From contig JAVCCG010000043.1 of assembly GCA_030765605.1 (NCBI GenBank), positions 1-26,108 of the forward strand: DNA of 26,108 nt. The letters run 5' to 3'. The notes under the pieces are model-generated. The model did not search any database. It was not told where the DNA came from and saw only the letters and a program-made list of their open reading frames with translations. Origin of the DNA: Candidatus Alcyoniella australis (lineage in GTDB: Bacteria; Lernaellota; Lernaellaia; JAVCCG01; Alcyoniellaceae). Position numbers and translations under genes: made by a program. Of this stretch, positions 5,660 through 26,108 are shown in pieces (the first letter of the stretch is position 1; each line of letters starts with the position of its first letter).

Positions 5660-6598
5660 TTACGGCCGCTTTAGCAGCCCGTCGATGATCAGGTCGGCGG
5701 CGTCGTCCTCGTTCAGGCCGCGCGCCATCAGCGTCTCGAGCTGTTTGCTGTCCACGCTGCCGATGGCCGCCTCGTGGGTCACGTGGGCCTTGGGGTGACG
5801 GACTTCGACCACCGGCACGGCCATGGCCACGGCGTGGTCCATTACGATCTCTTTGCAGTCCACGTGTCCGCGGCAGCCTGCGGCAGTGGCGGTCAGCGTA
5901 TTGCGGATCTCGGCCCGGGCGTTGTCGCGCACCGCGATGTGCGAGGTGAGCACGCCGCGCGCGTCCTCGCCCACCAGGTGGCCGATCTCGTTGAGCCTAA
6001 TCCGGTCGTGGCCGAAGCCCTTGATCCGCGCTGTCATCTCCATCACCGAGCGCGCGTGGCAGGTGGTCTCGTACTCGATGTCCAGCTCGCCCACGCGCCC
6101 CTTGACCAGTTCGAACTCGGTTTTAAAGCGCGCGCCCTCGTGCAAGGTGACCTTGGCCTTGGGCACCACCCGCGTGCCGCCGGAATCGCCGTGCACGTGG
6201 CGCTCGAGGTACGAGTAGCTCGCATTGCGCCCCACCGAAATCTCGGCGTCCATCAGGTGCTCGATCTGCTTGGCGTTGGGAAAAGTGCAGTGCGCCAGCA
6301 CCGCGACCTGCGCGCGGTCCTCGATATTGACGTGCATCACGATCCGCTGCACGCCGGTCTCGGGCATCAGGCCGAAGCACATGTGCACCGGCTTCTCGAT
6401 CTGCGTCCCCTCGTGCACACGCATCCAGATCTCAACGCCCTGGTCCAGTTGTTCGGCTTTGATCTCGAGTCCGGGGACCATTTTCGAGCCGAGCACCTCA
6501 TTGCCGTGCACCACCACGTAGGCCGCATCCTCGGCCAGGTCGTCGTGGCGCTGGTAGTCGATCGATTGGTAGATGCGCTCGATGGTCTGCTCGCTCAT
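5660..6598 (-). CDS. SufB/SufD-family Fe-S assembly scaffold, short SmsB type
   Basis: The protein has 312 residues from ATG 6598, whose first bases overlap the TGA of the sufC-like gene (ATGA), so the two are translationally coupled. It lacks the long N-terminal region of classical SufB and has the length of the archaeal/anaerobe SufB partner. The parallel beta-helix core ends in a well-conserved block: Cys248 in GHVDCKEI and His275-Glu276 in HVTHEAAIG, which line up with E. coli SufB Cys405, His433 and Glu434, the residues used to build the cluster. It ends with the typical helix pair TLMARGLNEDDAADLIIDGLL. With SufC it should form a C2B2 complex that assembles Fe-S clusters. No sufS, sufU or sufD is present nearby, which fits the minimal SMS-type system. 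The longer upstream ORF start is rejected because it lies inside the sufC-like gene. Confidence 0.88.
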   Translation of the reverse strand: MSEQTIERIYQSIDYQRHDDLAEDAAYVVVHGNEVLGSKMVPGLEIKAEQLDQGVEIWMRVHEGTQIEKPVHMCFGLMPETGVQRIVMHVNIEDRAQVAVLAHCTFPNAKQIEHLMDAEISVGRNASYSYLERHVHGDSGGTRVVPKAKVTLHEGARFKTEFELVKGRVGELDIEYETTCHARSVMEMTARIKGFGHDRIRLNEIGHLVGEDARGVLTSHIAVRDNARAEIRNTLTATAAGCRGHVDCKEIVMDHAVAMAVPVVEVRHPKAHVTHEAAIGSVDSKQLETLMARGLNEDDAADLIIDGLLKRP

Positions 6599-7329
6599 TG
6601 CCCGGCCCCCTTGATCGGCGCGTTTTTGTGGTCGCACGGCCGACAGCGGTCCTTGAAGTACAGCCCGATCTTGTCCACCGATCCGCGGTCGATCAGCTTG
6701 CCGCAGCACATCAGGAACGCGTGTTCGGCCTGTTCGAGCACGGCCAGCGAGTGGGTGATCATGATTACGGTGGCGCCGTCGGTCTTGAGCGTACGCAACG
6801 CGTCGAAGATCCGCTGCAGCGCGTCGACGTCGATCCCCGAGTCCGGCTCGTCCATCAGCACCAAGCGCGGCCGCATCGCCAAAATCGAGGCCAGCTCGAT
6901 CCGCTTGCGCTCGCCGCCGCTGAGCGTCTTATCCGCGGCGCGCCCGGCGTAGAGTGCCGGGTCGAGCCCCACGGCCTCGAGCGAGCGGTTCAGCATTTCA
7001 TCGGACTTGTCGCGGGCGGCGGCCAAAATGAAGCTGCGTACGCTCAGCCCCTCGAAGCGCGCCGGTTCCTGCCAGCCCAGGGTGATCCCGCGCCGCGCGC
7101 GTTCGTCGATGGGCAGCCCGCGTAGCGACTCGCCGTCAAAGGTCATCTCGCCGCTGTAATCGCGATAGCCGCTCAGACCCATGATCGTATTGGCCAGGGT
7201 CGATTTACCCGCGCCGTTGGGGCCGATAATCGCGTGCACGTGCCCCTCCCAAAACTCGACCGACAGCCCGTCGAGCACCGGCTTGCCGCCCAGTTTCAGC
7301 GCCAGGTCTTTGATCTCGAGGATCGCCAT
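6595..7329 (-). CDS. sufC: SufC-like ABC ATPase of the Fe-S assembly scaffold (SmsC type)
   Basis: This 244-residue cytoplasmic ATPase carries a complete ABC domain: Walker A GPNGAGKST (36-44), Q-loop around GWQEPARF (85-92), signature LSGGERKR (136-143), Walker B LVLMDEP (156-162) and the H-loop His193 in MITHS. EPDSGIDVDAL after Walker B is characteristic of SufC rather than of transporter ATPases. There is no transmembrane partner; the next gene, overlapping by 4 bases, is the SufB-type scaffold. Beyond the ABC fold the C-terminus adds about 35 residues containing MCCGKL and a CxxC pair (Cys229, Cys232), not found in E. coli SufC as I remember it. The start ATG 7329 has GGAGAGG seven bases upstream. 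Confident family call; the role of the cysteine tail is unknown. Confidence 0.92.
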   Translation of the reverse strand: MAILEIKDLALKLGGKPVLDGLSVEFWEGHVHAIIGPNGAGKSTLANTIMGLSGYRDYSGEMTFDGESLRGLPIDERARRGITLGWQEPARFEGLSVRSFILAAARDKSDEMLNRSLEAVGLDPALYAGRAADKTLSGGERKRIELASILAMRPRLVLMDEPDSGIDVDALQRIFDALRTLKTDGATVIMITHSLAVLEQAEHAFLMCCGKLIDRGSVDKIGLYFKDRCRPCDHKNAPIKGAGQ

Positions 7330-11558: not shown

Positions 11559-12365
11559 CTACTCCGGGATCCAGCAACAGCGGAAGCCGACGGCCAGCGG
11601 GGCCCAGGTCTCGGGCACGTAGTCGCATTGGTGCAGCTTGGCCGAGTCGCGGCAGTTGTAGGCGCCGCCGCGCACCTTGGTCACGTTGCCCGCCGCGACC
11701 TGCTCCCAAAGATTGCCGTTGAGGTCGTAGACGCCGAAGCCATTGGTGCACTCGGGGAACGATCCGCTGGGCGTCAGGTGCTGCTTATTATCGCCAAAGG
11801 CGTCGATGCCGTTGCAGGAGTAGGGGTCGTAATCGTCGCCGTAGGCATAGTCCGTGTCGTACGGCCCGCGGCAGGCGAATTGCCACTGCTGGGGCGTACA
11901 CAGTTGTTTGCCCGCGGCAACGCAGGCCTGCTGGGCCGACTCGTTGTTCAGCTCTTTCCAGGGCAGCACTCCGACGCGCGAGGTCGCGTACGATTCGTCA
12001 ACGCCGAAGTCCTCAGCCGTGGCGTCGGGCCGCGACGCCTCGTAGATATCAATGCAATAAGAGTCGAGCACCGAGGCCGAGCCTTGGGGGCAATCCAGCG
12101 GCTCGTCCCCGGCCGCGGGCTCGCAAAGGTGGCCGCGGCAGAGGAAGCCGATTCCGCAGTCCTTGTCGTTGTCGCACTCGTAGACGCATTGACCCTGAGC
12201 GTCGCAGACCTTGGGCTCTTCGCAGTCGCCGTTGTCAAAGCACTTCTCGTCAACCGCGCAGCCGGACCCAAAGAGCTGAAGCAGCCCGACGCACAACGCT
12301 GTCAGCGCGACGAGCAACACGACCGGCGCGGCCACGATCAGCCTGTGTTTAACGCATGAACGCAT
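11559..12365 (-). CDS. Cys-rich lipoprotein with formylglycine-generating-enzyme-like (SUMF1) domain
   Basis: This 268-residue protein has a long hydrophobic leader (residues 10-32) ending in LFGSGC, a plausible lipobox with Cys36. Then come two tandem six-cysteine-type repeats (about 37-81), each of the form C-x4-DC-x5-C-x5-C, familiar from delta-proteobacterial and myxobacterial surface lipoproteins. The C-terminal domain (about 90-268) is FGE/SUMF1-like: SYCIDIYEAS, AGKQLCTPQQWQFACRG, GVYDLNGNLWEQV and RGGAYNC...GFRCCW follow the family order. True FGE has two active-site cysteines five residues apart; here the matching region has YNC and a second cysteine nine residues on, so catalytic activity is doubtful. 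Many bacterial paralogues are structural or ligand-binding. It opens the envelope operon, behind a hairpin terminator for the upstream gene. ATG 12365 has no strong ribosome site. Confidence 0.8.
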   Translation of the reverse strand: MRSCVKHRLIVAAPVVLLVALTALCVGLLQLFGSGCAVDEKCFDNGDCEEPKVCDAQGQCVYECDNDKDCGIGFLCRGHLCEPAAGDEPLDCPQGSASVLDSYCIDIYEASRPDATAEDFGVDESYATSRVGVLPWKELNNESAQQACVAAGKQLCTPQQWQFACRGPYDTDYAYGDDYDPYSCNGIDAFGDNKQHLTPSGSFPECTNGFGVYDLNGNLWEQVAAGNVTKVRGGAYNCRDSAKLHQCDYVPETWAPLAVGFRCCWIPE

Positions 12366-12400: not shown

Positions 12401-12423
12401 GAAAAGGGCAGCTCTAAGCTGCC
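12401..12423 (-). terminator. Intrinsic terminator after the B12 radical SAM gene
   Basis: On the minus strand the palindrome GGCAGCT-TAG-AGCTGCC (12423-12407) is followed by CTTTTC. The stem begins at the last base of the stop codon region of the radical SAM gene. The T-run is short, so it may be a weak terminator, but it marks a likely break between the radical SAM pair and the envelope operon. It has the same geometry as the palindromes at 2298-2314 and 2414-2430. Confidence 0.55.
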
Positions 12424-14015
12424 TACTTCTCGTACCAGCTGGGTTTCCACAGGCTGCTCACTGCGGCGAAGCCCGAGAAGGTCTTGCGGCCGAGGATCGC
12501 GTGCCAAAGGTCGAGCAGCAGTACGCGGGTGATGCTCAGCGCAAACCACCAGTGCAAACGGCGGCGGATCTTGATCCGGCTGAACATCCCGCGCAGATAG
12601 CGCAACGGCTGCTTGGTCACGAACTCGAGGGTGATTTGCTCGGTGCCCTTGGCGATCTGTTTGCGGCTGATGTATTGCGAGGCCATCACCGGGTAGAACA
12701 TGTCGAACTTGGAGAAGTCCTTTTCCTCGAGCAACGGCGAATCTTTGTACTGCTCCCACAACTCGGTGCCCGGGTAGGGCATCAGCGGGTGGAACGCGGC
12801 GAAGTCCAAATGCGTGCGCCGCACGTACTTGCCCAACGAACGCAGGCTCTGCTCGGTCTCGGTGGGGATGCCGGTCATCCAGGTGGCCTGACGGAAGACC
12901 GTGGGGTACTCGCGTTCGAGCAGATGGCAGACCTCGAGGATCGAGTCGCGCCGCGCGTCGGTCTTGCCCACCAGTCTCAGGTCCTCCTCGGTCTCGCGCT
13001 CGGCTCCGAGCAGCACGTGCGAGAGCCCGGAGTCGACCATCGTGCGCAGCACTCCGCTCTCGTGCTGTTGCAGCAGGATGTCCGGACGGCAGAACGCCCA
13101 CCAGCCCAGCTTGTATCCGCGCTCGAGTATCCCGCCGCAGATCTGCTCCATCAGCGTTGAATCGTAATTCCAGGTGGCGTCGACCCAGAACAGGTAGCGG
13201 ATCTTGTATTGGTTGTAGAGCAGGTCGATTTCTTGGAGCACCCGCTCGCCGGACTTGGCGCGAATGCGCGGGGTGAGCTGCTCCTGGCCGTTGACCAGAT
13301 GGTGCTCGCCCTCGAGGTATGACCACGAGCAGAAGTTGCACTTGTAGGGGCAGCCGCGCTGGGCCTGGATCGTGATCGCCCGCGGCCAGAGCATGCCGAA
13401 CGGCGCGTACTTGTCGATCGGCGTGAGGTCGTAGGCCGGGATCGGCAGGCTGTCCAGCGGCTGGATCAGCGGCAGCGGCTCGGTCTTGACCACCTGTTGG
13501 CCGTCGAAGTACGCCAAGTTGCCCACCTGCCGCAGATCACCGCCGTCGCGCAGCGCGCACAGCAGTTGGCGCAACGCCTCCTCGCCCTCCCAGCGGATGA
13601 CAAAGTCGAGCTCCGGGTAGTTCGACAGCGAGTAATCGGGCATCGCGGAGTGGAAGTGCCCGCCGCCCACAGTGACGATCTGCGGGTCGATCTGCTTGGC
13701 CAAGCGCACCAGGCGCATGCCCTCCTTCATGTAGCAGATCATGTCGCCCACGCCGATCACGTCGGGTCGTTTTTCGCGCACGATGCGTTCGAGTTTTTTC
13801 CAGCCGATCTTCAGCGGCGGGCAGTCGAGGATTTCGACCTGCACTCCGGTCATCTTTTCGCGCAGCCAGGCGGCCAAACAGGGGAAGCCCAGGGGCAGCA
13901 GGAAATTGTCCGACTCGTTGATGATCGGCCACAGGTAGGACGGCGGCCTGACCAGCAGAACCTTAATCAGCTCTTTGCCGAACAACGGGCTGCGTTCGCT
14001 ATCAGTTGATCGCAT
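12423..14015 (-). CDS. B12-binding-domain radical SAM protein
   Basis: The protein has 530 residues from ATG 14015, supported by GGAGG eight bases upstream and a 14-base overlap with the preceding radical SAM gene. Residues 17-150 form a cobalamin-binding-type Rossmann domain (KVLLVRPPSY, PLGFPCLAAWL, DVIGVGD, VGGGHFHSAMPD). The DxHxxG motif that supplies the lower cobalt ligand in classical B12 proteins is absent; the site reads DMICYMKEG. The radical SAM domain (about 213-440) has the cluster motif RGCPYKCNFCSW (Cys222, Cys226, Cys229). A basic, hydrophobic C-terminal tail (about 455-530) resembles the membrane-associating tails of the BchE-like group. Such enzymes often methylate or rearrange unreactive carbons. 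Its substrate may be shared with the coupled SPASM enzyme upstream. Longer ORF starts are rejected because they read inside the neighbouring gene. Confidence 0.88.
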   Translation of the reverse strand: MRSTDSERSPLFGKELIKVLLVRPPSYLWPIINESDNFLLPLGFPCLAAWLREKMTGVQVEILDCPPLKIGWKKLERIVREKRPDVIGVGDMICYMKEGMRLVRLAKQIDPQIVTVGGGHFHSAMPDYSLSNYPELDFVIRWEGEEALRQLLCALRDGGDLRQVGNLAYFDGQQVVKTEPLPLIQPLDSLPIPAYDLTPIDKYAPFGMLWPRAITIQAQRGCPYKCNFCSWSYLEGEHHLVNGQEQLTPRIRAKSGERVLQEIDLLYNQYKIRYLFWVDATWNYDSTLMEQICGGILERGYKLGWWAFCRPDILLQQHESGVLRTMVDSGLSHVLLGAERETEEDLRLVGKTDARRDSILEVCHLLEREYPTVFRQATWMTGIPTETEQSLRSLGKYVRRTHLDFAAFHPLMPYPGTELWEQYKDSPLLEEKDFSKFDMFYPVMASQYISRKQIAKGTEQITLEFVTKQPLRYLRGMFSRIKIRRRLHWWFALSITRVLLLDLWHAILGRKTFSGFAAVSSLWKPSWYEK

Positions 14016-15090
14016 GGAACGTGACCTCCATCTGCAGTTTACGCGCCCAGTGTTCCAGGCGCATGCCCCAGCGCCGGGCGCTGATCGCGTCGGCGAGGAA
14101 GCTGGGGTAGGCCAGCAGCGGCAGCGGTTTGGCCGAGCGGCACGAGTAGCAGTCCAATCCCGGGTAGCGGCCACGCTCGAGGTGCCCGCGGCGTACGCGG
14201 GTCATAATCGGTCCGGTCCAGAACTCGTGCAGCGTGGTTTGAAACAAGTTGGCCAACGGCTTGCCGCCAAGTCCGGCCGCGCAGCACGGGTAGAGCCCGC
14301 CGTCCGCGCGGACCAGGGCCGGTCCCTGCCACAGAAACGGGCATGGTCCGCTCGATGCGTGCTCGTTTTCGCGGATCGCCGCGCGGTCGGCCAGGCTGCC
14401 GAACTCGTCGCTGACGATCCGCACGTCGTCGATTCCGCGCTCGCGCCAGTAGCTGCGCAACGAGCCGGCCTCGGCCAGGTTGCGACTGTCGGCGACCATT
14501 TTGACAAAGGCCAGCGGCCGCCTGCGATCGCCCTGGGCGATCTGTATAAAGCGAATGATGTTGCGCACGGTCTCGGCGTAGCGCGCGCCGGGGCGCGCTT
14601 GCTCGTAGACCTCGGGCTGCAGCGAGTCCACCGAAAAGGTGATCGCGCTCAGTCCGGCGTCGATCAGCTCGCGGCAGGCGCGTTCGTCCAGCAGTGTGGC
14701 GTTGGTCGAAACGTGGGTTCTGATTCCCACATCGCTGCAAAGAGCGATGCGCTCGGACAGCAGCGGATCGAGCAGCGGCTCGCCCATGCCGAAAAGGTTG
14801 ATCAGGTTGATTCGGCCCTGGCCCTGCTCGACCAGCGAGCGAAACGGCTCCATCGGCAGCACGCGCTCGCCGATGGCGTCGTAGCGGCGGAAGCAGCCGC
14901 GACAGCGAAGGTTGCAGCGGGTGGTGGTCTCGACCGTGACCACCGACGGGCCGCTGCGCGGGGCGGGCTTGCGCAGCAGGAAATCGCTCATCAGCCGCAG
15001 GCGGCCTCCGATGTTGCGAGGTCCGTTCATCGAGGCGATGCGTCCCGGATCGTCATAGCCTTTTGTACTGCGCCCCGATGAGTGTGGCAA
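14002..15090 (-). CDS. Radical SAM/SPASM domain protein
   Basis: This radical SAM enzyme has the cluster motif TTTRCNLRCRGCFRR (Cys59, Cys63, Cys66 when counted from the TTG at 15090), FGMGEPLLDP as the GGEP-like SAM-binding motif, and a C-terminal SPASM-type cysteine region: GPCPFLW, GGLYPCCAAG and GLDCYSCRS. SPASM enzymes hold one or two extra 4Fe-4S clusters and often modify peptides or proteins, but many act on other substrates. Two starts are possible: TTG 15090, ten bases after AGGAG, or ATG 15030 (342 residues), which has no clear ribosome site. Its end overlaps the B12 radical SAM gene by 14 bases, so the two are co-translated. A related radical SAM gene lies divergently next door. 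No short Cys- or Gly-rich precursor peptide gene is visible nearby. Confidence 0.87.
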   Translation of the reverse strand: MPHSSGRSTKGYDDPGRIASMNGPRNIGGRLRLMSDFLLRKPAPRSGPSVVTVETTTRCNLRCRGCFRRYDAIGERVLPMEPFRSLVEQGQGRINLINLFGMGEPLLDPLLSERIALCSDVGIRTHVSTNATLLDERACRELIDAGLSAITFSVDSLQPEVYEQARPGARYAETVRNIIRFIQIAQGDRRRPLAFVKMVADSRNLAEAGSLRSYWRERGIDDVRIVSDEFGSLADRAAIRENEHASSGPCPFLWQGPALVRADGGLYPCCAAGLGGKPLANLFQTTLHEFWTGPIMTRVRRGHLERGRYPGLDCYSCRSAKPLPLLAYPSFLADAISARRWGMRLEHWARKLQMEVTFHAIN

Positions 15091-15153
15091 GCGGCGGCGT
15101 CTCCTGGGATGCGGTGACCCAGCATGCTATTTTGGGCGCTGACGGAGTGTAAT

Positions 15154-16131
15154 TTGAGACCAAGACAGCTGGTAAAAGCGGCAGCCGGATTTGCCTCGGC
15201 CAAGCTTTGGGGCCGCAGAATTCCCCTGGCCGTGGGTTGGGATGTGACCCATCGCTGCAACCTGCGTTGCCTGTATTGCGGGTTCGAACGGCTCGACCCC
15301 GGCGAGCTGGATACGGCCCGGGCGTTGGAGCTGATCGACGCGATGGCCGACGCCGGATGCGTCAGGCTGCATCTCTCGGGCGGGGAGCCGATGCTGCGCG
15401 ACGACATCGGCGAGCTGATCGGCCGCGTGCTACAGCGCGGCATGGCCTGTGCGCTGAACACCAACGGGTTTCGCATTGATTCGCGCATCGACCAGGTGCG
15501 GCACGTCGATGCGATCCGTCTAAGCTACGACGGGCCGCGCGAGGTGCACGACCAACTTCGCGGCCAAGGCGCGCACGCGCAGATGCTTGCCGCGCTTGAG
15601 GCGGCGCGCGATGCGGGCACGCGCGTGGTGCTCAACGCCACGCTCAACGCGCGCAACGTCGGGATGCTCGACGAGCTGCTGGCATTCGCCGCAGCGCAAC
15701 GCACGCCGATCAAATTCCAGCCGGTGGTCCCCGGCCTGGCCTACGGCAAGGGGCTCGACGGTCTGGAGCCCGAGCAGCCGCAGCTCGAGGCCGCGGTGCG
15801 CCGACTGCTGCTGCTCAAGGCGCGCAACCGGCTGATCGTCAACTCGCGGGCCAATCTCGATTACTACCTGCAACGGCCCGATCCCGGCGCGCTGCCCTGC
15901 GTGGCGGGCAAGCTCTACACGCGGGTCGATCCCCTGGGACGGCTCTATCCGTGTTCGATGATGCGCCGCGAGCCGCTGATGCGCGATGCGTTGCAGCTCG
16001 GATTCCGCCGGGCCTTCGAGGACCTGCCCGCGGTGCGCTGCAGCGACTGCATCTGCCCGCCGACCCTTGAGTTGAACATGCTCTACGATCTGAACCTGCG
16101 CTCGCTGCTCAATCTGCGGAAATATTTGTAG
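15154..16131 (+). CDS. Radical SAM/SPASM domain protein (divergent)
   Basis: The start is taken as TTG 15154 because GGAG sits six bases upstream; the in-frame ATG at 15124 adds ten residues with a poorer site. From TTG the protein has 325 residues. WDVTHRCNLRCLYCGFE carries the CxxxCxxC cluster motif, LHLSGGEPMLRDD is the SAM-binding GGEP motif, NTNGF follows, and the C-terminal part has SPASM cysteines (LPCVAGKLYTRVDPLGRLYPCSMM, then VRCSDCICPP). The order is the same as in PqqE/heme d1-type and peptide-maturing SPASM enzymes. It is transcribed away from the other SPASM gene and meets the GT-C gene tail to tail, overlapping it by 23 bases. Target unknown. Confidence 0.87.
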   Translation: MRPRQLVKAAAGFASAKLWGRRIPLAVGWDVTHRCNLRCLYCGFERLDPGELDTARALELIDAMADAGCVRLHLSGGEPMLRDDIGELIGRVLQRGMACALNTNGFRIDSRIDQVRHVDAIRLSYDGPREVHDQLRGQGAHAQMLAALEAARDAGTRVVLNATLNARNVGMLDELLAFAAAQRTPIKFQPVVPGLAYGKGLDGLEPEQPQLEAAVRRLLLLKARNRLIVNSRANLDYYLQRPDPGALPCVAGKLYTRVDPLGRLYPCSMMRREPLMRDALQLGFRRAFEDLPAVRCSDCICPPTLELNMLYDLNLRSLLNLRKYL

Positions 16132-17782
16132 TCAAACCGATCCGCTCCAAGGGCTGCACCTCGCGCATGCCTGGAGCCAGAGGCCGGTCATTGCGCAGGA
16201 ACACCACCACCTGGCCTTGCTTGCTGCTGATCGCGACTTTGCGGTAGTTGCCCGCCAACCAGTCGCGGAAATCCTGATCGGACCGGGCAATGCGGAACAG
16301 GGTCGGATCGTCGAGCATGGCGCAGGGCGCGGCAACGATCAGTTGTTGGGCCGGGCAGGTCTCGAAGACCTCGCGGCCGAGGGTTTCCATGAGCAGCGCG
16401 GCCAGGACCCGTTTGGCCGGATCGCGCTGCAACGCCTCGCGCGTGTGCAAAGTATGCTGATACAGGCCGACGATCCCCTGTGGCAGGTGCGGCAGATGCG
16501 GGGCGTAGAGTTCCTCGCCGTAGTGTGTTTGCGGCGCAGGGCACGAGTATGAGAGCGCGGCGAAAAAGTCCGCGGTCTGGGCCAGGGTGTAGGGTCGGTA
16601 GAAGTCGTTTATCGCGCTGTGCACGCAATCCTCGCCAGGCATCAGGCGCGTGTTCAGCGCGCCTTGGACGTCCAGGGGGTGCTCCGTGCGCAGGGACGTA
16701 CGCAGGCCGTAGGTCCCGAGCCAGACCACGACGATCAGCCCGCAGGCGGCCAGCGTCCGAAGGTTCCGCCGTGAGTCGGGCAGACGCCTGACGATGCTCT
16801 GGATCGCCGTGGCCAGGCCCACGCTGACCAGCGGCGCGCCCACCAGCAGCTCGAGGGTGAAGTGCTGCCAGAACAGCCGGTTCAATCCAATGAGGAAGTA
16901 GCTGATGTGCAGCGCGATCACCAGCGAGCAGGCCAGGGCGAACCCGCGGTGCTTGGAGCGATAGAGTCGAATAAATCCGGCTGCCAGCAGTGCGAACCAT
17001 AGGACCAGGACCACTGCAAACCAGGCGTGGGGTTCGATCGGCATCGGCAGCTTGGGCCCGTATTGCAGCGGCACGATGCGCCCCATGATCCAGGCGTTGT
17101 GCGCCACGTCGAACAGCCGCGTGGGGCCGTAGGCCAGGCTCCAGGCCGCCAGTGCGCTCAGGCCGGCGATCGCCGGGACCGTCAGCTTGTCGGCCCTGCG
17201 CGCGACGAGCAGCCACGCCAGACAGACCGCGCCCCCTGCCACCGCCAGCTCGAGCTGATTGGCCAGAGCCAGGCCGAGCATCACGCCGCCGAGCACGCGC
17301 CGCCGGGGCTTGAGAAACAGCGCGGCCAGCGCCAGCAGCAGCAGGGCGTACGACAGCGCGTTGGGCCGATACTGGTAGAGCCGGTCGGCCACCTCGGCGA
17401 TAAACATCAGCGACAGCGGCGCCACGGCCACCGCCAATCCCGGCCGCTCTCCTCCCAGGCGTCTGATCGTCCAGAGTACGGACAGGGCCGCAAACAGCAT
17501 GCACAGCATGCCCAATCCGCGTTGGGCGTAGGGCAGCAGTTGCGGGTCGAACCAAACGATCGGCCTGCTCAGCAGCTGAAACACCGGCTCGATGTAGTAG
17601 CAGATGAAATCCTGGTGCAGCAGCTGACCCGAGGCGAGGTTGAACACCACCTGGCCGCGGAACGACTCGTCGATGTCCCAATTCGCGCCCAGTCCGCCGC
17701 AGATCAGGTAGAGCGCGAACAGCGACCAGCCGACCGCCGTGGCGGCGATGAAGCTGCTCTGGGATGGTCGGTGGTAATTCAT
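16109..17782 (-). CDS. GT-C type membrane glycosyltransferase-like protein
   Basis: This 557-residue integral membrane protein starts at ATG 17782 (TTG 17788 is possible). It has about ten to twelve membrane helices in the first 360 residues and a soluble, probably periplasmic, C-terminal domain of about 190 residues. After the first helix comes ANWDIDESFRGQVVFNLASGQLLHQDF, the acidic first loop (DxDE) that holds the catalytic Asp in ArnT/PMT-type GT-C enzymes, followed by YYIEPVFQLLSRP, the place of the usual 'KPPL' segment. The family transfers sugars from polyprenyl-phosphate carriers at the outer face of the inner membrane. It is divergent from the next GT-C gene, with an AT-rich 80-base region between. 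Family call is by pattern; donor and acceptor are unknown. Confidence 0.75.
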   Translation of the reverse strand: MNYHRPSQSSFIAATAVGWSLFALYLICGGLGANWDIDESFRGQVVFNLASGQLLHQDFICYYIEPVFQLLSRPIVWFDPQLLPYAQRGLGMLCMLFAALSVLWTIRRLGGERPGLAVAVAPLSLMFIAEVADRLYQYRPNALSYALLLLALAALFLKPRRRVLGGVMLGLALANQLELAVAGGAVCLAWLLVARRADKLTVPAIAGLSALAAWSLAYGPTRLFDVAHNAWIMGRIVPLQYGPKLPMPIEPHAWFAVVLVLWFALLAAGFIRLYRSKHRGFALACSLVIALHISYFLIGLNRLFWQHFTLELLVGAPLVSVGLATAIQSIVRRLPDSRRNLRTLAACGLIVVVWLGTYGLRTSLRTEHPLDVQGALNTRLMPGEDCVHSAINDFYRPYTLAQTADFFAALSYSCPAPQTHYGEELYAPHLPHLPQGIVGLYQHTLHTREALQRDPAKRVLAALLMETLGREVFETCPAQQLIVAAPCAMLDDPTLFRIARSDQDFRDWLAGNYRKVAISSKQGQVVVFLRNDRPLAPGMREVQPLERIGLTTNISAD

Positions 17783-17862
17783 AATCAAGGCTAGTCCTGA
17801 AATTCTTGATCTTTAATCGATTAGCTGTCAACCTTTACAGGGCAAAAGTATAATAAATCACG
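17783..17862. promoter_or_regulatory. AT-rich divergent promoter region between two GT-C genes
   Basis: On the plus strand a perfect TATAAT -10 box lies at 17849-17854, with CTGTCA (17825-17830, four of six consensus bases) 18 bases upstream as -35. Transcription would begin about 17861-17863, at or just before the ATG at 17863. No ribosome binding site precedes that ATG (nearest AGGG is about 20 bases away), which fits a leaderless transcript. The region is far richer in A and T than its flanks. Confidence 0.6.
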
Positions 17863-20800
17863 ATGGTTCCAGCACAAACACCCCGGCCGGACAAACGTCT
17901 TCTGTGGTTGTTGCTGTTATTGATTCTAACAGCGACGGTGCTGTTCTATCGCCTGCCGGTGCTCAGCGAATCGTTCTGTAACCCGGACCTGGGCACACCG
18001 GCCTACGCCGCGCGACTGGTCGGCCAGGGACGTTGCCCCTACAGCGAGGCCACGGTCACCAAGCCGCCGGGCAGCGTGTTGATCTTCGCACTGGGTTTCA
18101 AGCTGTTCGGGCCGCGGCTGCTGCCGATCTACATCTTCGCCCTACTGTGCGCCGTGGGGGCCTGTCTGGCGCTTTACCGCATCGCCGAGCAGGCGCTGGA
18201 CCGTCGCAGCGGGCTGCTGGCAGGCGGAGCCTACGCGCTGTACCAGGCCGAGCTGATGTCAGGCTCGATCTGCCCCAATTTCGAGAGCTGGGCGATATTG
18301 CCCTCGCTGCTGAGCCTGATGCTGCTGCTAAACCGGCGGGTCGGGGTCTGGCACCTGCTCGGGGCCGGGGCCTGCGTTGCTGTGGCGCTATGGATGAAGC
18401 AGGTAGCGCTGCTGTTCGTAGTTGCGGCGCTGCTGCTGGCGTTGATCAGGCGCGATAGATCCCGCACGCGTCCGGCCGCCCTGGGGCTGGTGCTGGTCGG
18501 GCTGGCAGCCGGATCGCTGCCGTTCGTGATCGCCATGGCCGACCTGGGTTGTCTGGGCGCGATGTTCGAACAGTTGGCGCCGGGCCGGCTCTCCAACTAC
18601 TTCGCCATCGGCAGCGCCAGCCGCGGGGAGTTCGCCCTGGCGCAGCTCGGGCGGTTCCTCTCCTCGAATTTCTGGCTGGTCTGCCTGGCGGCCGTGGGCC
18701 TGGCGACCTCGCTGTTTTGGCCGGCCTGGCGGGCCGTGGGGCGGGCCCGGATCGGCGTCTGGATCTACTGCGTTGCGGCGTTGGGCGCCACGTTGGCCGG
18801 CGGCCGCTTCACCAGCCACTACTTCGTGCTGCTGCCGCCCTACCTGTGCCTGCTCGGCGCGCTGACCCTCGGATTGCTGCTGCGGGCCGCTCCGCGTCGG
18901 CTCGGAGCGGTGCTGCTGGCATTGGCTTGCCTGGGGTTGGGTCTGGACAACCGGCCCGAGACGCGGCTGGCCGCGCTGTCGTTAAACGGCGTGTGGTCAG
19001 ACGGCAAGCCGTTGACCCGACGGATCTTCGAGCTCAACCACGCGGCGCAGCTCGAGCCGCAGCAGGTCAACGAGATGCTCGGCCACTTGGAGTGGCAGCC
19101 GACGTTGCGCAAGGTCGGCCGACGACTGAGCGCGCACCTGCGCTCCGGCGAGACGATCTGGTGCTACGACTACCTGCCCGAGCTCTACCTGTTCTCCGGC
19201 GCCCTGTCGCCGACCCGCTTCCAGGAGAACTTCGACGTGGTCTCCGGCGAGGAGATCGCGCACCCCAACTACGGTCACTGGCAAAGCGCGATATCGCCCG
19301 AGCTGCAATCCAACCGCGAACAGCTGCTCGCCCAGCTCGCCGCCGATCCGCCGCGCTTCATCGTGCGGCTGGCCTACGACTGCCCGCAGGAGTACGACGC
19401 CCCGACCGCCAAACCCGCCGACTGGCCGCGCAACGCCTGGGGCGACCCGCTGGCCCTTTGCCAGCCGCGCGCCGCGCTTTTCGATGAGCTGGAGAGCCTG
19501 TTGCAGCGCGACTACGTTGCCTTCGACCTGCCGGGGAACAACGTGGTCGAGGTTTTCGAACACCGGCCGCAGATCCCGTACGCGACGCGGCCGCGGGCGC
19601 AATCGGAAGGCTGGCTGATCGAGCCCTGGCTGCCTCCCGGCGAGCTGGCAGCGGCCACGGACGTGGCAATCGATTCCGACGGCGCACTCTACGCGGCCGA
19701 GGCCTGGGACACGATCAGCCGCATCAAGTTCGGGGATCGCGGCGCGCGTGCGAGCAACGCAGTGGACGATCCGTCGACGCCGCAGGTCGAGCGGCTGCGC
19801 GCCTACTCGCTGGAGGCCGATCCGGGCGGCGGACTGTGGGCCTACAATTTTGTCCTGGGCGAGATCTACCGGCTGCGGCGTTCCGAGGCGGGGAACCTGA
19901 CCGTCGAGACCCTGGCCTTTGACGAGCTGACCACGACCATGGAGAGCACCCTGGCCGTGCTTTCCGACGGTACGCTGCTGGTCGGCGTCAACCGTCCGGG
20001 CAGCCGATCCGAGCTGTGGCGTCTGGGCCGCGAAGACCGCACGTTGAAACGGCTGGCGCAATACGACGGGACGCTCAAAGCTTTGGTCGACGACGGAGGC
20101 GATGCGGCTATTTGCGGCCTGGACCGCGAGCTGTATCGCTGTGACCCGCAAACCGGCGAGCTGGGTCCGGCGCTGTGCGAGCTGCCCGAACCGCTGTCGC
20201 ACAACGGCCTGGCAATGGGGCTGCGAGGCGAGCTCTACGCCTCCACCGGCGACTGGCAGGAGCGCGGCTGGCTGTTGCGCCTGGTTCCCCAGCGCGACGG
20301 CCTGCGGGTCGAGCGCATCTATCGCACTCCCGGCCCGGGGATCCAGGGGATCTGTCTTGACGGCGACGCGCTGCTCGGAGTCAGTCGGCTCTCGGGCGAT
20401 CTGTACCGCGCGCCCCTGGAGCGGATCGACGCCAACGCCGACTACCGCTTGATCGTGGGCAACGGGATCGCCGTGCCGCAGATGCTCGCCGCGCGACGCT
20501 CCGGACTGGGCCAACGGATGCTCTACGTGGTCGACGGCGAGAGCGGACGGATCATGGCTCTATCCGATCCGCGGAATGCGCCGCGCGAGCTGGCCCGGGA
20601 GCCGCTGTACAACCACATCGGCTCGCGGATGGCGATCGATGGCAGCGGCAGACTGCTGTTCACGGTCTGCGCTCCGGGATTCGAGTCGCAGCACGGCCTG
20701 TACCGTCTCGATCCGGGGACCTACCGGCCGCAGCGCCTGGCGCTGGAGCCCCCGGATCACGAGCCCGCGCGACCGTGCTCCGCGGCCGTCGGACTCGAGG

Positions 20801-21321
20801 GCGAGACGCTGGTGGCCGACACGAAAGAGAACGGGCGAATCCTCAGTCTGACTCCCACGGGCGAGGCCCAAGTGCTGGTCGACCGCGGTCAGGCCCCCTC
20901 GCTGCGTTTCCCAACGGGGCTGCTCGTCGAGCCCGACGGCTCGCTGCTGGTCAGCGTCAGCCTCGGCGACACGCCGCGCTTGGCCGGGGTGCCGCGCTGC
21001 GATACGGTGTTGCGCCTGCAGCGCGACGCCGAGGGCCGCTGGAGCGAGCATTCGGTGTTCAGCGGCGTGGGCCGACCGGGCCCCGAGCGCCAGTCGCGGC
21101 TGGTCAACGACTTCGTGGCGGGCCCCGAGGGCACGCTGTACGTGGCCACGGACGAACAGTTGTTCGCCGTGTCCGCGCCCTACGAACCGGGCAGCGAACG
21201 GATGATCGCCGACGGATTCGGCTATGCCCTGGGCCTGGCCTTGGACCATGACGGCGGGTTGCTGCTCAGCGACGGCCGCAACAGCGCGATCTGGCGGCTC
21301 GAACATCCGGAGCTCCGGTGA
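17863..21321 (+). CDS. GT-C membrane glycosyltransferase-like protein fused to a C-terminal beta-propeller
   Basis: This 1152-residue protein has two parts in one unbroken frame. Residues 1-370 contain about ten membrane helices in the GT-C pattern: first-loop motif SFCNPDLGTPAYAARL, then CPYSEATVTKPPGSVLIF, the 'Y-x-D/E...KPPG' signature of lipid-linked sugar transferases. Residues about 400-580 are a soluble domain like those of the neighbouring GT-C proteins. From about residue 600 to the end, some eleven repeats of about 50 residues follow the pattern D-x-DG-x-LY-V/A-A-D...I-x-R-L (for example VAIDSDGALYAAE, ALDHDGGLLLSDGRNSAIWRLE), as in NHL/SMP-30 propellers. The propeller should be periplasmic and could bind glycan or protein. 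The next GT-C gene starts within its stop codon (GTGA). The Asp of the usual DxD in loop 1 is reduced to PDLG. Confidence 0.82.
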   Translation: MVPAQTPRPDKRLLWLLLLLILTATVLFYRLPVLSESFCNPDLGTPAYAARLVGQGRCPYSEATVTKPPGSVLIFALGFKLFGPRLLPIYIFALLCAVGACLALYRIAEQALDRRSGLLAGGAYALYQAELMSGSICPNFESWAILPSLLSLMLLLNRRVGVWHLLGAGACVAVALWMKQVALLFVVAALLLALIRRDRSRTRPAALGLVLVGLAAGSLPFVIAMADLGCLGAMFEQLAPGRLSNYFAIGSASRGEFALAQLGRFLSSNFWLVCLAAVGLATSLFWPAWRAVGRARIGVWIYCVAALGATLAGGRFTSHYFVLLPPYLCLLGALTLGLLLRAAPRRLGAVLLALACLGLGLDNRPETRLAALSLNGVWSDGKPLTRRIFELNHAAQLEPQQVNEMLGHLEWQPTLRKVGRRLSAHLRSGETIWCYDYLPELYLFSGALSPTRFQENFDVVSGEEIAHPNYGHWQSAISPELQSNREQLLAQLAADPPRFIVRLAYDCPQEYDAPTAKPADWPRNAWGDPLALCQPRAALFDELESLLQRDYVAFDLPGNNVVEVFEHRPQIPYATRPRAQSEGWLIEPWLPPGELAAATDVAIDSDGALYAAEAWDTISRIKFGDRGARASNAVDDPSTPQVERLRAYSLEADPGGGLWAYNFVLGEIYRLRRSEAGNLTVETLAFDELTTTMESTLAVLSDGTLLVGVNRPGSRSELWRLGREDRTLKRLAQYDGTLKALVDDGGDAAICGLDRELYRCDPQTGELGPALCELPEPLSHNGLAMGLRGELYASTGDWQERGWLLRLVPQRDGLRVERIYRTPGPGIQGICLDGDALLGVSRLSGDLYRAPLERIDANADYRLIVGNGIAVPQMLAARRSGLGQRMLYVVDGESGRIMALSDPRNAPRELAREPLYNHIGSRMAIDGSGRLLFTVCAPGFESQHGLYRLDPGTYRPQRLALEPPDHEPARPCSAAVGLEGETLVADTKENGRILSLTPTGEAQVLVDRGQAPSLRFPTGLLVEPDGSLLVSVSLGDTPRLAGVPRCDTVLRLQRDAEGRWSEHSVFSGVGRPGPERQSRLVNDFVAGPEGTLYVATDEQLFAVSAPYEPGSERMIADGFGYALGLALDHDGGLLLSDGRNSAIWRLEHPELR

Positions 21322-22868
21322 GCCGCGCGGAATCGGCTCCTCAGGCGGTCCGGGCGCTGCACCTGGCGTTGGTTGCCGCGCTGCTGCTGGTGACGCTGGG
21401 AGCGCACGTCGCGCTGCATCGCGCCCCGCCCTACCTCGACACCTGGGATCACGCCACTGTCTCGCGCATTTTGCTGCGCGGCGGGGAAATCTATTCCGAC
21501 GCGTTTGACGAGACCGGCCCCGGCATTTACTGGATTACATCCGGGGCAATGGCCCTGTTCGGCGATCGCATCGCCGTGCTGCTTTATGCGGCCACCTGCG
21601 CGGTGCTGCTTAACATCGTGTTGCTGTTTGCCGCCGGAGTGCGCCTGGGAAGACCAAATATCGGATTGCTCAGCGCGCTGATCTACGCGCTTTACCATCC
21701 ATTGATCCAGGGAACCGCCTGGCAGTCCGAGTCGATCATCACGCCGATGATGCTCGCGGCGTTTGTCCTCTTACAATCCTCGAGCCGTATGCGAACCGCC
21801 GCGGTCTGGGCCGGGCTGGCGCTGTTCATTGCCACGCTCACCAAGCAGACAGCGTGGATCGCGACGATTGCGCTTGTCGCGCTGTTGACGGTGCGAGCAT
21901 TGCGCAGCAGGGAGCGCGGGGCGTCGCAACAGCTTCTCGGAATCGGGTTGGGATTATGCCTGCCGTGGTTGCTGGTTCTGGGCACCAGCCTCGCCCGGGG
22001 TACGTTGGGGACGTTTCTCGATGGCTACCTGTTTCCGCTGCTGCACTATGGAACGGCCTATTACGTCTCGCTGGCCACGGACTGGCATTTCTGGCTGTCG
22101 CTGCCACTGTGGTGGATGGTCCTTTCTAGCCTGCTGCTTTTACGCGGCCGAACGCTGCCCGGTCTTGATCGCAGCTTGCTGCTGACTTTTTTGGCGGCCG
22201 CGGTTCTCATGGCCCTACCGGCGCTTTTTCCATACCACCACCTGCCGTTTCTCACTTTTGCCTCGCTGGGTTTTTGTTTGGCGATCTTTCCTCCAGCCTC
22301 GAACCGCAGGCGCTTGACGCTCGTGGCGGGAATGGTTGCCTGCGTCTGCATTGCCGTTTGGCTCGTTCCGCGAGACGCTTTGCTCAACGAGCTTGTGCCG
22401 CGAGGCGAGGACTTGCGCGGACAGGTCGTCAAGCGCGTACGCGAGCTAACCCAGCCGCACGATACGATCGCCGCCATTCCCTATGATTCGTACTACTACT
22501 ACCAAAGTGAGCGTATGCCCCCGGGGCGACACACCTTCCTGCTGCCTTGGACCACTCCGCCGTTCGTACTCGACGAATTTCTCAACGACTATGACGCGCA
22601 TCCGCCACAGGCGATCGTCTATACGTTCTACCAGGTGTGCAACACCAATCGCGTGTTGCCCAAGCAATACCTCGCGCCGCTACTGGAGCTGATCAGCGAG
22701 CAGTACCGCATTGACAGCGTCTATCAAAACGGCGCGGTGCTGTTGACGCCCAACAACGGCGAGCCCGACATGCGGGTGCGCGCGCTGCTGTTCTCGGACG
22801 TGCAGTGTCTGGATCTGGGCCCGGAGGTGCATGCCGGGGAGTTCACGCTGGATCTCGTGCTGCGCTGA
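21318..22868 (+). CDS. GT-C type membrane glycosyltransferase-like protein
   Basis: The GTG start at 21318 overlaps the TGA of the fusion gene (GTGA), so translation is coupled. The 516-residue product has about ten membrane helices up to residue 350, then a soluble domain of about 165 residues. The first loop reads LDTWDHATVSRILLRGGEIYSDAFDETGPGIYW: WDH holds the acidic residue typical of GT-C first loops and DETGPGIYW sits where 'KPPL' usually stands. The soluble domain starts with a typical VKRVRELTQPHDTIAAIPYDSYYYYQSERMPPGR, a segment seen in ArnT-like transferases of polysaccharide clusters. It probably cooperates with the fusion protein. Its stop lies one base from the stop of the convergent radical SAM gene, leaving no room for a separate terminator. 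Confidence 0.78.
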   Translation: MSRAESAPQAVRALHLALVAALLLVTLGAHVALHRAPPYLDTWDHATVSRILLRGGEIYSDAFDETGPGIYWITSGAMALFGDRIAVLLYAATCAVLLNIVLLFAAGVRLGRPNIGLLSALIYALYHPLIQGTAWQSESIITPMMLAAFVLLQSSSRMRTAAVWAGLALFIATLTKQTAWIATIALVALLTVRALRSRERGASQQLLGIGLGLCLPWLLVLGTSLARGTLGTFLDGYLFPLLHYGTAYYVSLATDWHFWLSLPLWWMVLSSLLLLRGRTLPGLDRSLLLTFLAAAVLMALPALFPYHHLPFLTFASLGFCLAIFPPASNRRRLTLVAGMVACVCIAVWLVPRDALLNELVPRGEDLRGQVVKRVRELTQPHDTIAAIPYDSYYYYQSERMPPGRHTFLLPWTTPPFVLDEFLNDYDAHPPQAIVYTFYQVCNTNRVLPKQYLAPLLELISEQYRIDSVYQNGAVLLTPNNGEPDMRVRALLFSDVQCLDLGPEVHAGEFTLDLVLR

Positions 22869-22869
22869 G

Positions 22870-24327
22870 TTAAATTTTCCTGCGCAAGCGGCCACGCAGT
22901 CCGCTGATCAGCCCTTCGAGCAGCACGTAGAAGCCGATCGCCATGTTCTTCGGGGTGATGATCCCCAGGCGTAAGTGGCGCAGGATCATTCGCGGCCGCA
23001 CGTAGAAACGCCACATCGCCCAGTGCTGAAAGAACTTCAGCCGCCGGGCGCTGAGCCCCTGGGGCACGAAAATCAACCCCTGGTCGTCGGGGTCGTCGTA
23101 CCAGCTCGAGAAACGCTCGAAGCGATCGGACGACATCGTGCCCCGCTCTCCCAGGCTTTGCAGCAGTTCGGTGCCCGGATAGGGGACCGCCAGGTTGAAC
23201 TTGGCGATGTCGCAGTCAAGCTCAACGGCGAAGCGCGCAGTGCTGCGGATCGTGGCCTCGGTCTCGCCGGGCAGGCCGATAATGAAAAAGCCCACCGTGT
23301 GCAGGCCCAACTGTTTGCAGGCGGCCATGGCCCGGCGCGACTGCTCGATGGTCTGGCCCTTGTGCACGCTGTCGAGCACCTGCTGGTCGCCGGACTCGAA
23401 CCCGAGCATCACCGTGGTCAGCCCGGCCTCGGCCAACGGCTGCAACACCTCGATGTCGGCCTGATCCACGCGCAGCTCCGTGGCGAAACGCAGCTTGCCG
23501 ATCAGCCCGCGCTGCCGCAGCTCGTCGGCGAACAGGTTGCCGAAGTCGCGTCGCGGCGGAAAGCAGGCGTCGATGAATCCCAGGGTGCGCAGGCCGAACT
23601 CGTCGTGCACCCACTGGAAGTAATCGGCGACCCGTTGCGGCGAGAGCGCGCGGAACTCGGCTCCCATCTCGCGCTGGGCGCAGAACGAGCAGTGGAACGG
23701 ACAGCCGCGCGAGGCCAGGGCCGGGATCGCGATGTCGTCAAACCCCAGCAGCGGAGCCGAGCGGTAATTATTGAGGTCGAGCAGGTTCCAGGCGGGAAAC
23801 GGCAGCAGGTCGAGATCCGTGGCCTGTTGCACAACGGGATTGACCCGCGGCCCATCGGGACCGGCGTAGGTCAGCCCGGCCACGTCCTCCAACGCCTCGC
23901 CTGCGGCCAGACGGTCGGCCAGCTCGCACAGCGGCCCCTCGCCCTCGCCGCGAATCACGTACTCGGCCACGCCGCTATGCACCAACTGCTCGTGGAACAG
24001 CGTGGCGTGCAGGTTGCCCAGCACAAAGCGCAGGGGACGATCCGCGCGTTGCCGCGCCGCGGCGATCAGTCGCTGTACCGCGCCCACGGCAGTGGTCAGC
24101 AGCGAGATGCCGATCAGGTCGGCCTCGGACTCGATCAGGCTGCGCACCTGCTGGTCGAAACTCGGGCGATCGGCGAAGTGATCGACGATTTGCACCTCGT
24201 GACCGGCCTGGATCAGGCTCGCGGCGAGGCTCGCAATGCCGTAGGGCGGGATCGGCGTGTGGAAGTGGCGGTATCCGCCGCAGATCAGCCGCAAATCGCA
24301 CAGCGGATTGACCAGCAGGATCTTCAC
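22870..24327 (-). CDS. B12-binding-domain radical SAM protein (BchE-like tail)
   Basis: The start is GTG 24327, which overlaps the TGA of the U32 gene before it (GTGA); AGGA lies nine bases upstream. The product has 485 residues: a B12-binding Rossmann domain (KILLVNPLCDL, PIPPYGIASLAASLIQAGHEV, LGNLHATLFHE, YVIRGEGE), a radical SAM domain with RGCPFHCSFCAQ (Cys209, Cys213, Cys216), GFESGDQQVLDSVHKGQ and AVPYPGTEL, and a basic C-terminal region (WRFYVRPRMILRHLRLG) of the BchE/P-methylase-like group. No DxHxxG motif is visible in the B12 domain. Tight coupling to two U32 proteins suggests a shared pathway. A longer ORF start at 24990 is rejected because it reads through the U32 gene in another frame. 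Confidence 0.88.
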   Translation of the reverse strand: MKILLVNPLCDLRLICGGYRHFHTPIPPYGIASLAASLIQAGHEVQIVDHFADRPSFDQQVRSLIESEADLIGISLLTTAVGAVQRLIAAARQRADRPLRFVLGNLHATLFHEQLVHSGVAEYVIRGEGEGPLCELADRLAAGEALEDVAGLTYAGPDGPRVNPVVQQATDLDLLPFPAWNLLDLNNYRSAPLLGFDDIAIPALASRGCPFHCSFCAQREMGAEFRALSPQRVADYFQWVHDEFGLRTLGFIDACFPPRRDFGNLFADELRQRGLIGKLRFATELRVDQADIEVLQPLAEAGLTTVMLGFESGDQQVLDSVHKGQTIEQSRRAMAACKQLGLHTVGFFIIGLPGETEATIRSTARFAVELDCDIAKFNLAVPYPGTELLQSLGERGTMSSDRFERFSSWYDDPDDQGLIFVPQGLSARRLKFFQHWAMWRFYVRPRMILRHLRLGIITPKNMAIGFYVLLEGLISGLRGRLRRKI

Positions 24328-25133
24328 GGCCGCGCATCCTGCGCCGCCGGGTCGAGCAGCTCGACCCAGGCCGGGCTGTCGATCCCCGAGGCTTGCGAGC
24401 GGAAGAACAGGCCGCTGGTCAGGCGCGAGGGCGCGGGCCGTTGCCCGTCGTAGACCTCGGCCAGCCCTTGATACTGCTCTTGGTCGACCCCCAGCCCCTC
24501 GATCACGGCCCACTGCACTCCCGCGTTTTTCAGCCGCTCGATTATGCCGTAAGCCTGCACCGGCCGCGAGGAGTAGAGTGTGTTGCCGCGCAGCTCGATG
24601 GCGGCCGGATAGCCCTCGACCTCGAGCCGCTGCTCGCATTGCTCGCAGCCCAGGTGCAATCGCGTCAGGCAGCGCGGCGTTGTGGCCAGCGGCAGCCGTC
24701 CGTGCACCACGACCTCCACCGGCAGTTGCGCGGCCAAGGTCTCCACAGTGCGGATCGTCGGCGGGAACACACGCAACAGCTCCGCGCCGATGCGCTCGAC
24801 GATGGTTTGGCCTGTGGGCAGGTTGCCGATGTATCCGCCGTAACCCAGCCGCACCCGGCCCGCCAGCAGCCGTCCCAAGCCCAAGTCGCCCACCAGCACA
24901 CCCGCAAAGGCCTGTGCCGCGTCGAGGGTCAGCTCGGCGATGCGCTCGAGCTCGGATTGGCGCACCAGGCTCGGGGTGCACAGCCAGCACGGCGCTGCGC
25001 TGTGTTGCGCCGCGGCGACGAACTCGGCCAGCCGGTTGCGATAGCGCAGCGCGCAGAAGCGCTCGCCCAGGTAGACCCGGTCGGCGTCCCGCATGGCGGG
25101 CCCGAGGTCAATCTGTTGGAAGGCGACGCGCAT
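24324..25133 (-). CDS. U32 family protein, UbiV-like
   Basis: The start is ATG 25133, inside the end of the first U32 gene (overlap 26 bases), giving 269 residues; the ORF itself runs further upstream but those codons are out of frame with the known family start. DADRVYLGERFCALRYR matches the UbiV opening with its first cluster cysteine, and VEVVVHGRLPLATTPRC...LGCEQCEQ supplies three further cysteines (R-C, then C-x2-C), the same order as the four 4Fe-4S ligands of E. coli UbiV. The end, YSSRPVQAYGIIERLKNAGVQWAVIEG, is the typical barrel closing. UbiV works with UbiU in oxygen-independent hydroxylation during ubiquinone synthesis. An analogous hydroxylation is plausible here, but no quinone gene lies next to it. 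Confidence 0.82.
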   Translation of the reverse strand: MRVAFQQIDLGPAMRDADRVYLGERFCALRYRNRLAEFVAAAQHSAAPCWLCTPSLVRQSELERIAELTLDAAQAFAGVLVGDLGLGRLLAGRVRLGYGGYIGNLPTGQTIVERIGAELLRVFPPTIRTVETLAAQLPVEVVVHGRLPLATTPRCLTRLHLGCEQCEQRLEVEGYPAAIELRGNTLYSSRPVQAYGIIERLKNAGVQWAVIEGLGVDQEQYQGLAEVYDGQRPAPSRLTSGLFFRSQASGIDSPAWVELLDPAAQDARP

Positions 25134-26108
25134 TTTTAAAGGCCCGGGCGACTTTGCGGGTGCGGTCCACGGCAAACGAAATTCCCTTGGGCGAGAGGTA
25201 CGGTGCCAGCCCCAGGGCGAAGTCCCACGGATCGCCCTCGAGCTCCAGGGTCTGCTCAAGATCGGTCGATCCCGCGTAGAACCCCGGCGTACTGCGCGGG
25301 GCCGCAATGAACAACGGGTTGTGTTGCGGCTGCGGCGGCAGAGGGTCTCCGGCGGCCAGGGCGTCGACGGCCCGGCGCAGCACTTTGAGCACCTCAATCG
25401 AGTAACGCACGCTCTTCTGTCGGCCCTCGACCTTGATGCAGTCCACGCCGCCCTCGAACATCCGCTGCAACAGCGGGTAGGCGTTGAGACAGCGGCTGCG
25501 CATCGGCGTGCGTCCCGCGCCGGGCATGCGCTCGATCAGCAGCGCGTCGCGGCACGGCGCCAGGCACATCTCGCCGTAGAGGTAGCTGGAGAGTCGGCAC
25601 TGCCCATGGTAGTTGAAACAGAACCCGCCGTAGACGAACAGCTCGATCTCGATTGCGGCGCGGCGTTTGATCTCCAGCGCCTCATCCAGGCTCAGAATCC
25701 GCTCGAGGATGATCCGGCTCGCGCCCAGCCCTTTCCAGAATTCGGCGGTCTGGTGGTTGAGGGTGCGCCCCAGGATCGAGACGTGCAGCTCGGCCTGCGG
25801 CAGGTCGCGCTGCAACAGCGCGGCAAGCCCCGCGTCGCTGACAATGAGCGCGCCCACCCCGCCGCGCACCAGCTCGCCCGCCAGATCGAGCAGCACGGGG
25901 AGCTGTTCGTCGTGATAGATCGAGTTGAGCGTGACGTAACAGCGGCGGCCCGTGTCGTTGATCATCGCCATTGCCTGCCGCGCCGAGTCGAGGTCGAACT
26001 CGACCGAGGTCGGCAACAGGGAGAAGCGCTGCCCAACGGAAGTCGGGGGTTGCACGCCGAAGTAGATCGCGTCGGCCCCGTGCCGCAGCAGCGCTGCGAC
26101 CTGGCTGA
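25108..26108 (-). CDS. U32 family protein, UbiU-like (5' end beyond window)
   Basis: The frame is open to the right edge, so the first residues are missing; the visible part starts in LLRHGADAIYFGVQ, the standard U32 first strand. GTG 26055 is therefore an internal codon, not the start. The cluster region reads YGGFCFNYHGQCRLSSYL, EMCLAPCRD and SRCLNAYP, followed by GGVDCIKVEGR. The spacing C-x6-C, then C, then C before the helix, matches the four 4Fe-4S cysteines of UbiU. Family members in bacteria hydroxylate ubiquinone precursors, tRNA or rRNA under various conditions; they are not proven peptidases in these roles. It is the first visible gene of an operon with the UbiV-like gene and the B12 radical SAM gene. 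Confidence 0.87.
   Translation of the reverse strand, partial: SQVAALLRHGADAIYFGVQPPTSVGQRFSLLPTSVEFDLDSARQAMAMINDTGRRCYVTLNSIYHDEQLPVLLDLAGELVRGGVGALIVSDAGLAALLQRDLPQAELHVSILGRTLNHQTAEFWKGLGASRIILERILSLDEALEIKRRAAIEIELFVYGGFCFNYHGQCRLSSYLYGEMCLAPCRDALLIERMPGAGRTPMRSRCLNAYPLLQRMFEGGVDCIKVEGRQKSVRYSIEVLKVLRRAVDALAAGDPLPPQPQHNPLFIAAPRSTPGFYAGSTDLEQTLELEGDPWDFALGLAPYLSPKGISFAVDRTRKVARAFKNARRLPTD

Follow-up and report, generated by a model that had tools for sequence, protein, structure and literature searches.

GT-C glycosyltransferases make glycoproteins and the glycans of cell surfaces across all domains of life; how they choose their acceptors is often unknown. Extra domains on these enzymes, such as CBMs and TPRs, have so far been a way into this question. 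In the GT136 enzyme ORF12, the C-terminal CBM binds the acceptor LPS and is dispensable for activity; in EmbC and AftD, the CBMs are in contact with the acceptor polysaccharide (PMC11127046). Given the dispensability of the GT136 module, acceptor-binding modules can be accessory parts of the enzyme. Within the membrane domain of ArnT, roles have been described for the residues D55, K85, D158, K203 and Y345 (PMC7801869). The gene analysed here joins a GT-C glycosyltransferase to a long series of beta-propeller blades. Both parts are very common; the combination of a GT-C with a double propeller is real and well formed, and apparently undescribed.

The window, that is the whole stretch of DNA analysed, is the entire contig G000:C43 with 26108 bases, which belongs to a 98% complete genome of 4.29 Mb (G000) from the phylum Ca. 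Lernaellota. The gene (17863..21321, plus strand) starts with ATG, is open across 1152 codons and codes for a protein of 1152 aa. It is one intact frame, in which a GT-C membrane domain, a soluble domain and the propellers follow each other. The GC contents at codon positions 1, 2 and 3 were ~0.70, 0.49 and 0.87, respectively, and remained steady over the full frame. The codon use of the GT-C half and the propeller half correlated with 0.88, and each half correlated with the other genes of the window with 0.91-0.94.

The ArnT/PMT-like membrane domain proposed in a preliminary description of this DNA was recovered by both profile and fold comparison. It spans aa 11-380 (17893..19002, plus strand) and contains a Pfam PMT_2 match at aa 67-216 that passes the cut-off, with an E-value of 4.5e-13. 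In the full-length AlphaFold2 model, the GT-C half reached a pLDDT of ~90. Alignment of the modelled residues 5-571 with yeast and human STT3, AglB, PMT, PglB and ArnT yielded Z-scores of 21-26 at an rmsd of 3.6-4.7 (VIA-align). The likeness to ArnT (GT83) and PMT (GT39) is a fold match only, with no PDB sequence match to either at E-values up to 1. The PMT_2 match and the model together showed the features of the GT-C superfamily fold, a multi-helix membrane domain with the active site in external loops. The adjoining soluble alpha/beta domain, likewise anticipated, covers aa 386-571 (19018..19575, plus strand) and aligned to the soluble parts of OST, ArnT and PglB up to aa 568-572. This domain of the GT-C family, predicted to be periplasmic, is kept in the stand-alone orthologues, which end here.

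The residues D42, K67, E141, K179 and H319/Y320 were near-invariant in an alignment of 12 GT-C family members and are candidates for catalysis and donor binding. Their spacing from D42 through K67, E141 and K179 to Y320 (25, 74, 38 and 141 residues) is similar to that from D55 through K85, D158 and K203 to Y345 in ArnT (30, 73, 45 and 142 residues). Assigned to ArnT D55, K85 and K203 by this spacing and not by structural superposition of residues, D42, K67 and K179 provide the acidic residue of the first external loop and the donor-phosphate lysines of GT-C enzymes. Since this aspartate and the donor-binding lysines are conserved, the GT-C enzyme of the fusion is probably active. The gene product would be an inner-membrane glycosyltransferase that uses a polyprenyl-phosphate-sugar donor, with a predicted active site facing the periplasm. 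Homology to the ArnT/OST topology supports an extracytoplasmic, periplasmic placement of both the active site and the propellers, for the latter in agreement with the preliminary description.

The remaining ~575 residues (aa 578-1152) comprise 12 blades of the NHL/SGL type, one more than had been counted before. A blade HMM built from the protein's own blades matched 12 times between aa 598 and 1148, with a total of 221 bits and a mean spacing of ~48 aa (41-64 aa), and had no match on the GT-C half. The score on the fusion protein is circular, as these blades had served to train the HMM; the independent test is the finding of known propellers elsewhere. In unrelated genomes, the blade HMM recovered proteins with Pfam assignments to SGL, Vgb lyase and NHL at E-values down to 2e-16, which argues against a chance origin of the repeats. 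Pfam itself detected only one NHL repeat, at aa 1119-1145 (E 3e-4, or 2.2e-5 when the last half was scanned alone).

Propeller 1 (blades 1-6, aa 578-857; 19594..20433, plus strand) was assigned by sequence, with six blade-HMM matches between aa 598 and 852 and an alignment to six-bladed SGL/NHL proteins. Propeller 2 (blades 7-12, aa 858-1152; 20434..21318, plus strand) also had six matches and was modelled. The full-length model gave a pLDDT of only ~40 for the propellers because one alignment row covered them. As an alignment of all 12 blades spread the homologues over both repeat halves, only aa 858-1152 were folded separately, with 21 additional alignment rows. The resulting AlphaFold2 model had a pTM of 0.77 and a pLDDT of ~90 for blades 8-12, blade 7 being uncertain. 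Six-bladed propellers led its structural matches with Z-scores of 19-20 over 218-246 residues: the lactonase RPA3624, Pizza6, DFPase, nidogen, LRP6 and hetero-Diels-Alderases. Foldseek matches included TRIM NHL domains, PknD, the propellers of the heparin-sensing protein BT4663 and virginiamycin B lyase. NHL/SGL propellers have repeated four-stranded blades of ~40-50 aa, six to a ring; propeller 2 fits this pattern by its blade matches and its model, and for propeller 1 it is predicted from the sequence. The NHL/SMP-30-like fold expected earlier was borne out for propeller 2 by structure prediction, the check proposed for it, which also recovered the GT-C fold of the first half.

One large or two smaller propellers had both been considered for these repeats. 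The 12 blades and the match of the second half to six-bladed rings favour two smaller ones, and most simply the blades form two six-bladed propellers. A single 12-bladed ring is possible in principle, since known propellers range from four to twelve blades (PMC6805158). From the strand order, GWLIEPWLP (~aa 583) and YRLIVGN (~aa 861) may be the closing strands of the two rings.

The metal ligands of SGL enzymes are Glu, Asn and Asp (and Asn) located just before the blade-core Gly. At these positions, aligned by motif and not by structure, the two propellers carry T, Y, S, L, N, Q and Q, S, C, T, N, L. Of the ligand set that characterizes SGL/SMP-30 enzymes such as gluconolactonase and DFPase, N781 and N1082 alone are kept. 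The missing Glu/Asn/Asp set makes catalysis of the SGL/DFPase type unlikely, suggesting that the propellers are probably binding modules. No direct homologue of the propeller half was present elsewhere in its own genome or in viral contigs, and a single-sequence search of 386 genomes revealed no convincing one; a profile search returned general NHL/SGL propellers only.

The distribution of the fusion was assessed in seven Ca. Lernaellota genomes and in the wider set of 386 genomes. Four orthologues of the GT-C half in the genomes G003, G004 and G006, one of them (C148 of G006) truncated at its 5' end, shared 36-42% identity and ended at the residue where the propeller starts in the fusion. The fusion is thus not conserved in these relatives. 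Among the 48 listed matches to the GT-C family at an E-value of 1e-10 or better in the 386 genomes, only the frame in the window exceeded 830 aa, and no GT-C/propeller fusion occurred at the other places matching the GT-C family. A contig search with the full 1152-aa protein gave no match; with the GT-C alignment, relatives of ordinary length were obtained. Many long frames in relatives look like upstream open frames and not like further fusions. Three or more membrane-like segments were present in only one of the 37 NHL/SGL-propeller ORFs checked, the fusion gene itself. No fusion of a GT-C with a propeller or NHL domain was found in the literature. The rarity suspected in the preliminary description therefore stands and, in a small sample, the fusion is so far unique to one genome.

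Other soluble domains are fused to GT-C proteins in this phylum. All seven genomes, of 4.3-5.3 Mb, contain 33-76 PMT_2 matches each. The genome with the propeller fusion also encodes a GT-C fusion with a sulfatase domain (PF00884, E 1.7e-25; L040:3-2852, minus strand, G000:C38) and one with an FGE-sulfatase domain (PF03781, E 2e-17; L041:1154-3643, minus strand, G000:C6). Contig G006:C298 encodes tandem GT-Cs of ~1200 aa, each with a PGA_cap domain (capsule synthesis, PF09587; L071:3023-6634 and L071:6694-10284, plus strand), and a GT-C protein in G002 has a weak C-terminal TPR match. This lineage thus habitually fuses soluble domains to GT-Cs. Throughout the phylum, the counts per genome of both PMT_2 and B12-binding matches were very high.

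NHL/SGL propellers elsewhere include binders of proteins or RNA, sensors and catalysts. By analogy to the CBMs fused to other GT-Cs, the double propeller most likely binds the acceptor (probability roughly 0.5). Of the two roles considered in the preliminary description, holding the acceptor or sensing the product, this precedent favours the first. Two six-bladed NHL/SGL-type propellers, joined to the end of the soluble domain and placed in the periplasm, would then form a non-catalytic module which takes hold of the acceptor (either an exported protein or a glycan of the cell surface) and offers it to the transferase. Such docking would parallel the role of the CBMs in EmbC, AftD and the GT136 enzymes. 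The fusion gene shares its contig with a second GT-C gene and a glycoside hydrolase gene, which provides a glycan context. The hydrolase gene (GH31; 1-1647, minus strand; PF01055, E 6.8e-36) is cut by the contig end.

The second GT-C gene (21318..22868, plus strand; 516 aa) follows the fusion gene with a GTGA overlap, its GTG at 21318-21320 and the TGA of the fusion gene at 21319-21321. The coupling noted earlier was thus confirmed, as was the class of the second protein: PMT_2 matched with 27.9 bits (cut-off 26.1), and hhalign (98.6%) showed homology to the GT-C half along the entire protein, making it a paralogue. It is probably translated from the same message and may act on the same acceptor. 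Orthologues of both genes were adjacent or near each other in three of the seven genomes, and co-directional and overlapping only in G000. This lends modest support to the two-transferase machine envisaged in the preliminary description. In its full form, this idea sees a double-propeller docking platform on one GT-C, translationally coupled to a second, with the propellers gripping the acceptor, a polymer or a protein, for decoration by both enzymes. Such a periplasmic machine, a GT-C architecture not described before, seems doubtful on present evidence.

An alternative role for the propellers is that of a protein-protein scaffold, for example one which keeps an envelope protein or the second GT-C next to the first GT-C and thereby lets the two transferases work as one machine. 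The paralogy and GTGA overlap of the second gene and the neighbourhood of the pair in three of seven genomes are consistent with this role, and the TRIM NHL and LRP6 propellers among the fold matches bind macromolecules. In the relatives, however, the pair occurs without a propeller. The two orthologues are convergent and ~10 bases apart in G006, separated by ~2 kb with an opposite-strand gene (without match to the propeller) between them in G003, and on different contigs in G004. Because neighbouring pairs exist without it, the GT-C pair does not need the propeller, and we regard a scaffold as unlikely.

Downstream of the second GT-C gene lies a convergent gene for a B12-binding radical SAM protein (22870..24990, minus strand; PF02310, PF04055). 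Six of the seven genomes have a gene of this kind near the GT-C family or near its partner, as a neighbour in G001, G002, G003, G005 and G006. All seven genomes have 45-74 B12-binding domain matches each, so the association with GT-Cs is suggestive and not proven. In G002 and G005 (L013 and L015), the B12-binding radical SAM gene ends 3-4 bases upstream of a GT-C gene of the same family, possibly as a conserved operon. The window contains four radical SAM genes (12423-16131 and 22870-24990), two of them B12-binding and one with SPASM. Further genes in the window are FGE-like (11559-12365), Suf-like (5660-7329), a U32 peptidase (25108-26055) and, in a bacterium, a member of the deoxyhypusine synthase family (4244-5539, minus strand; PF01916, E 3.5e-66). 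A divergent multi-pass membrane protein of ~559 aa without Pfam family is encoded at 16109-17788 (minus strand). It has a GT-C-like layout and N-terminal DIDES stretch; profile comparison detected no significant homology to GT-Cs.

The propellers might also be a second enzyme of the SGL/DFPase/Vgb kind, editing the glycan product of the transferase as a lactonase, hydrolase or lyase. The lactonase RPA3624, DFPase and virginiamycin B lyase are among the best fold matches, and other GT-Cs of the genome carry enzyme domains (sulfatase, FGE-like), but the loss of the metal-ligand set described above makes an editing enzyme improbable. Similarly improbable is a sensory or regulatory part which switches the transferase in response to periplasmic conditions or product, as the extracellular propeller of the kinase PknD might suggest. 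PknD and the heparin-sensing BT4663 propellers are indeed among the Foldseek matches; however, no output domain is attached, so that the GT-C itself would be the output, and in GT-Cs whose extra domains have been studied, these serve to bind the acceptor (PMC11127046).

The restriction of the fusion to one of seven phylum genomes, and its absence from all other GT-C family places in the 386 genomes, could point to a metagenome-assembly artefact or to a functionless accident of a single strain, yet this is very improbable: the frame is intact, the contig contains no Ns, codon use is continuous, no membrane or signal segment was found in the propeller half itself, and the flanking GT-C and its paralogue neighbour each other without a propeller in two relatives, so that a false insert would have to be joined precisely and in place at both ends, in frame at one and with a clean GTGA overlap at the other. 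An assembly join, the doubt raised in the preliminary description should the two halves always be separate genes, is hence unlikely given the synteny on both sides, even though the GT-C half always stands alone in the relatives.

If the double propeller does bind the acceptor, it would add a new type to the acceptor modules of GT-C enzymes. With 33-76 GT-C genes per genome, several of them fused, the phylum may be a rich source of natural domain combinations. ArnT (GT83), PMT (GT39) and STT3/AglB/PglB (GT66) resemble the fusion protein in the membrane fold, the soluble C-terminal domain, the candidate catalytic Asp of the first external loop and the donor-binding lysines; they differ in lacking a significant sequence match in the PDB search and in the two propellers, which the fusion protein adds. 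The six-bladed fold itself is shared with PknD of Mycobacterium tuberculosis, DFPase, TRIM-NHL proteins and Vgb, and in PknD the propeller likewise lies outside a membrane protein; the partner domains differ, and the SGL/DFPase metal ligands are not kept in the fusion protein. TMTC1-4, members of the GT-C/PMT clan, also continue from a GT-C membrane half into a long lumenal repeat domain (PMC7801869), but these eukaryotic ER proteins carry helical C-terminal TPRs, whereas the repeats of the bacterial fusion protein are propeller blades. EmbC, AftD and the GT136 enzyme ORF12 from Citrobacter youngae resemble it in joining a GT-C to a beta-rich module in the periplasm, which in their case binds or contacts the acceptor glycan; their module is a CBM, with an Ig-like fold in GT136, whereas that of the fusion protein is a double NHL/SGL beta-propeller.
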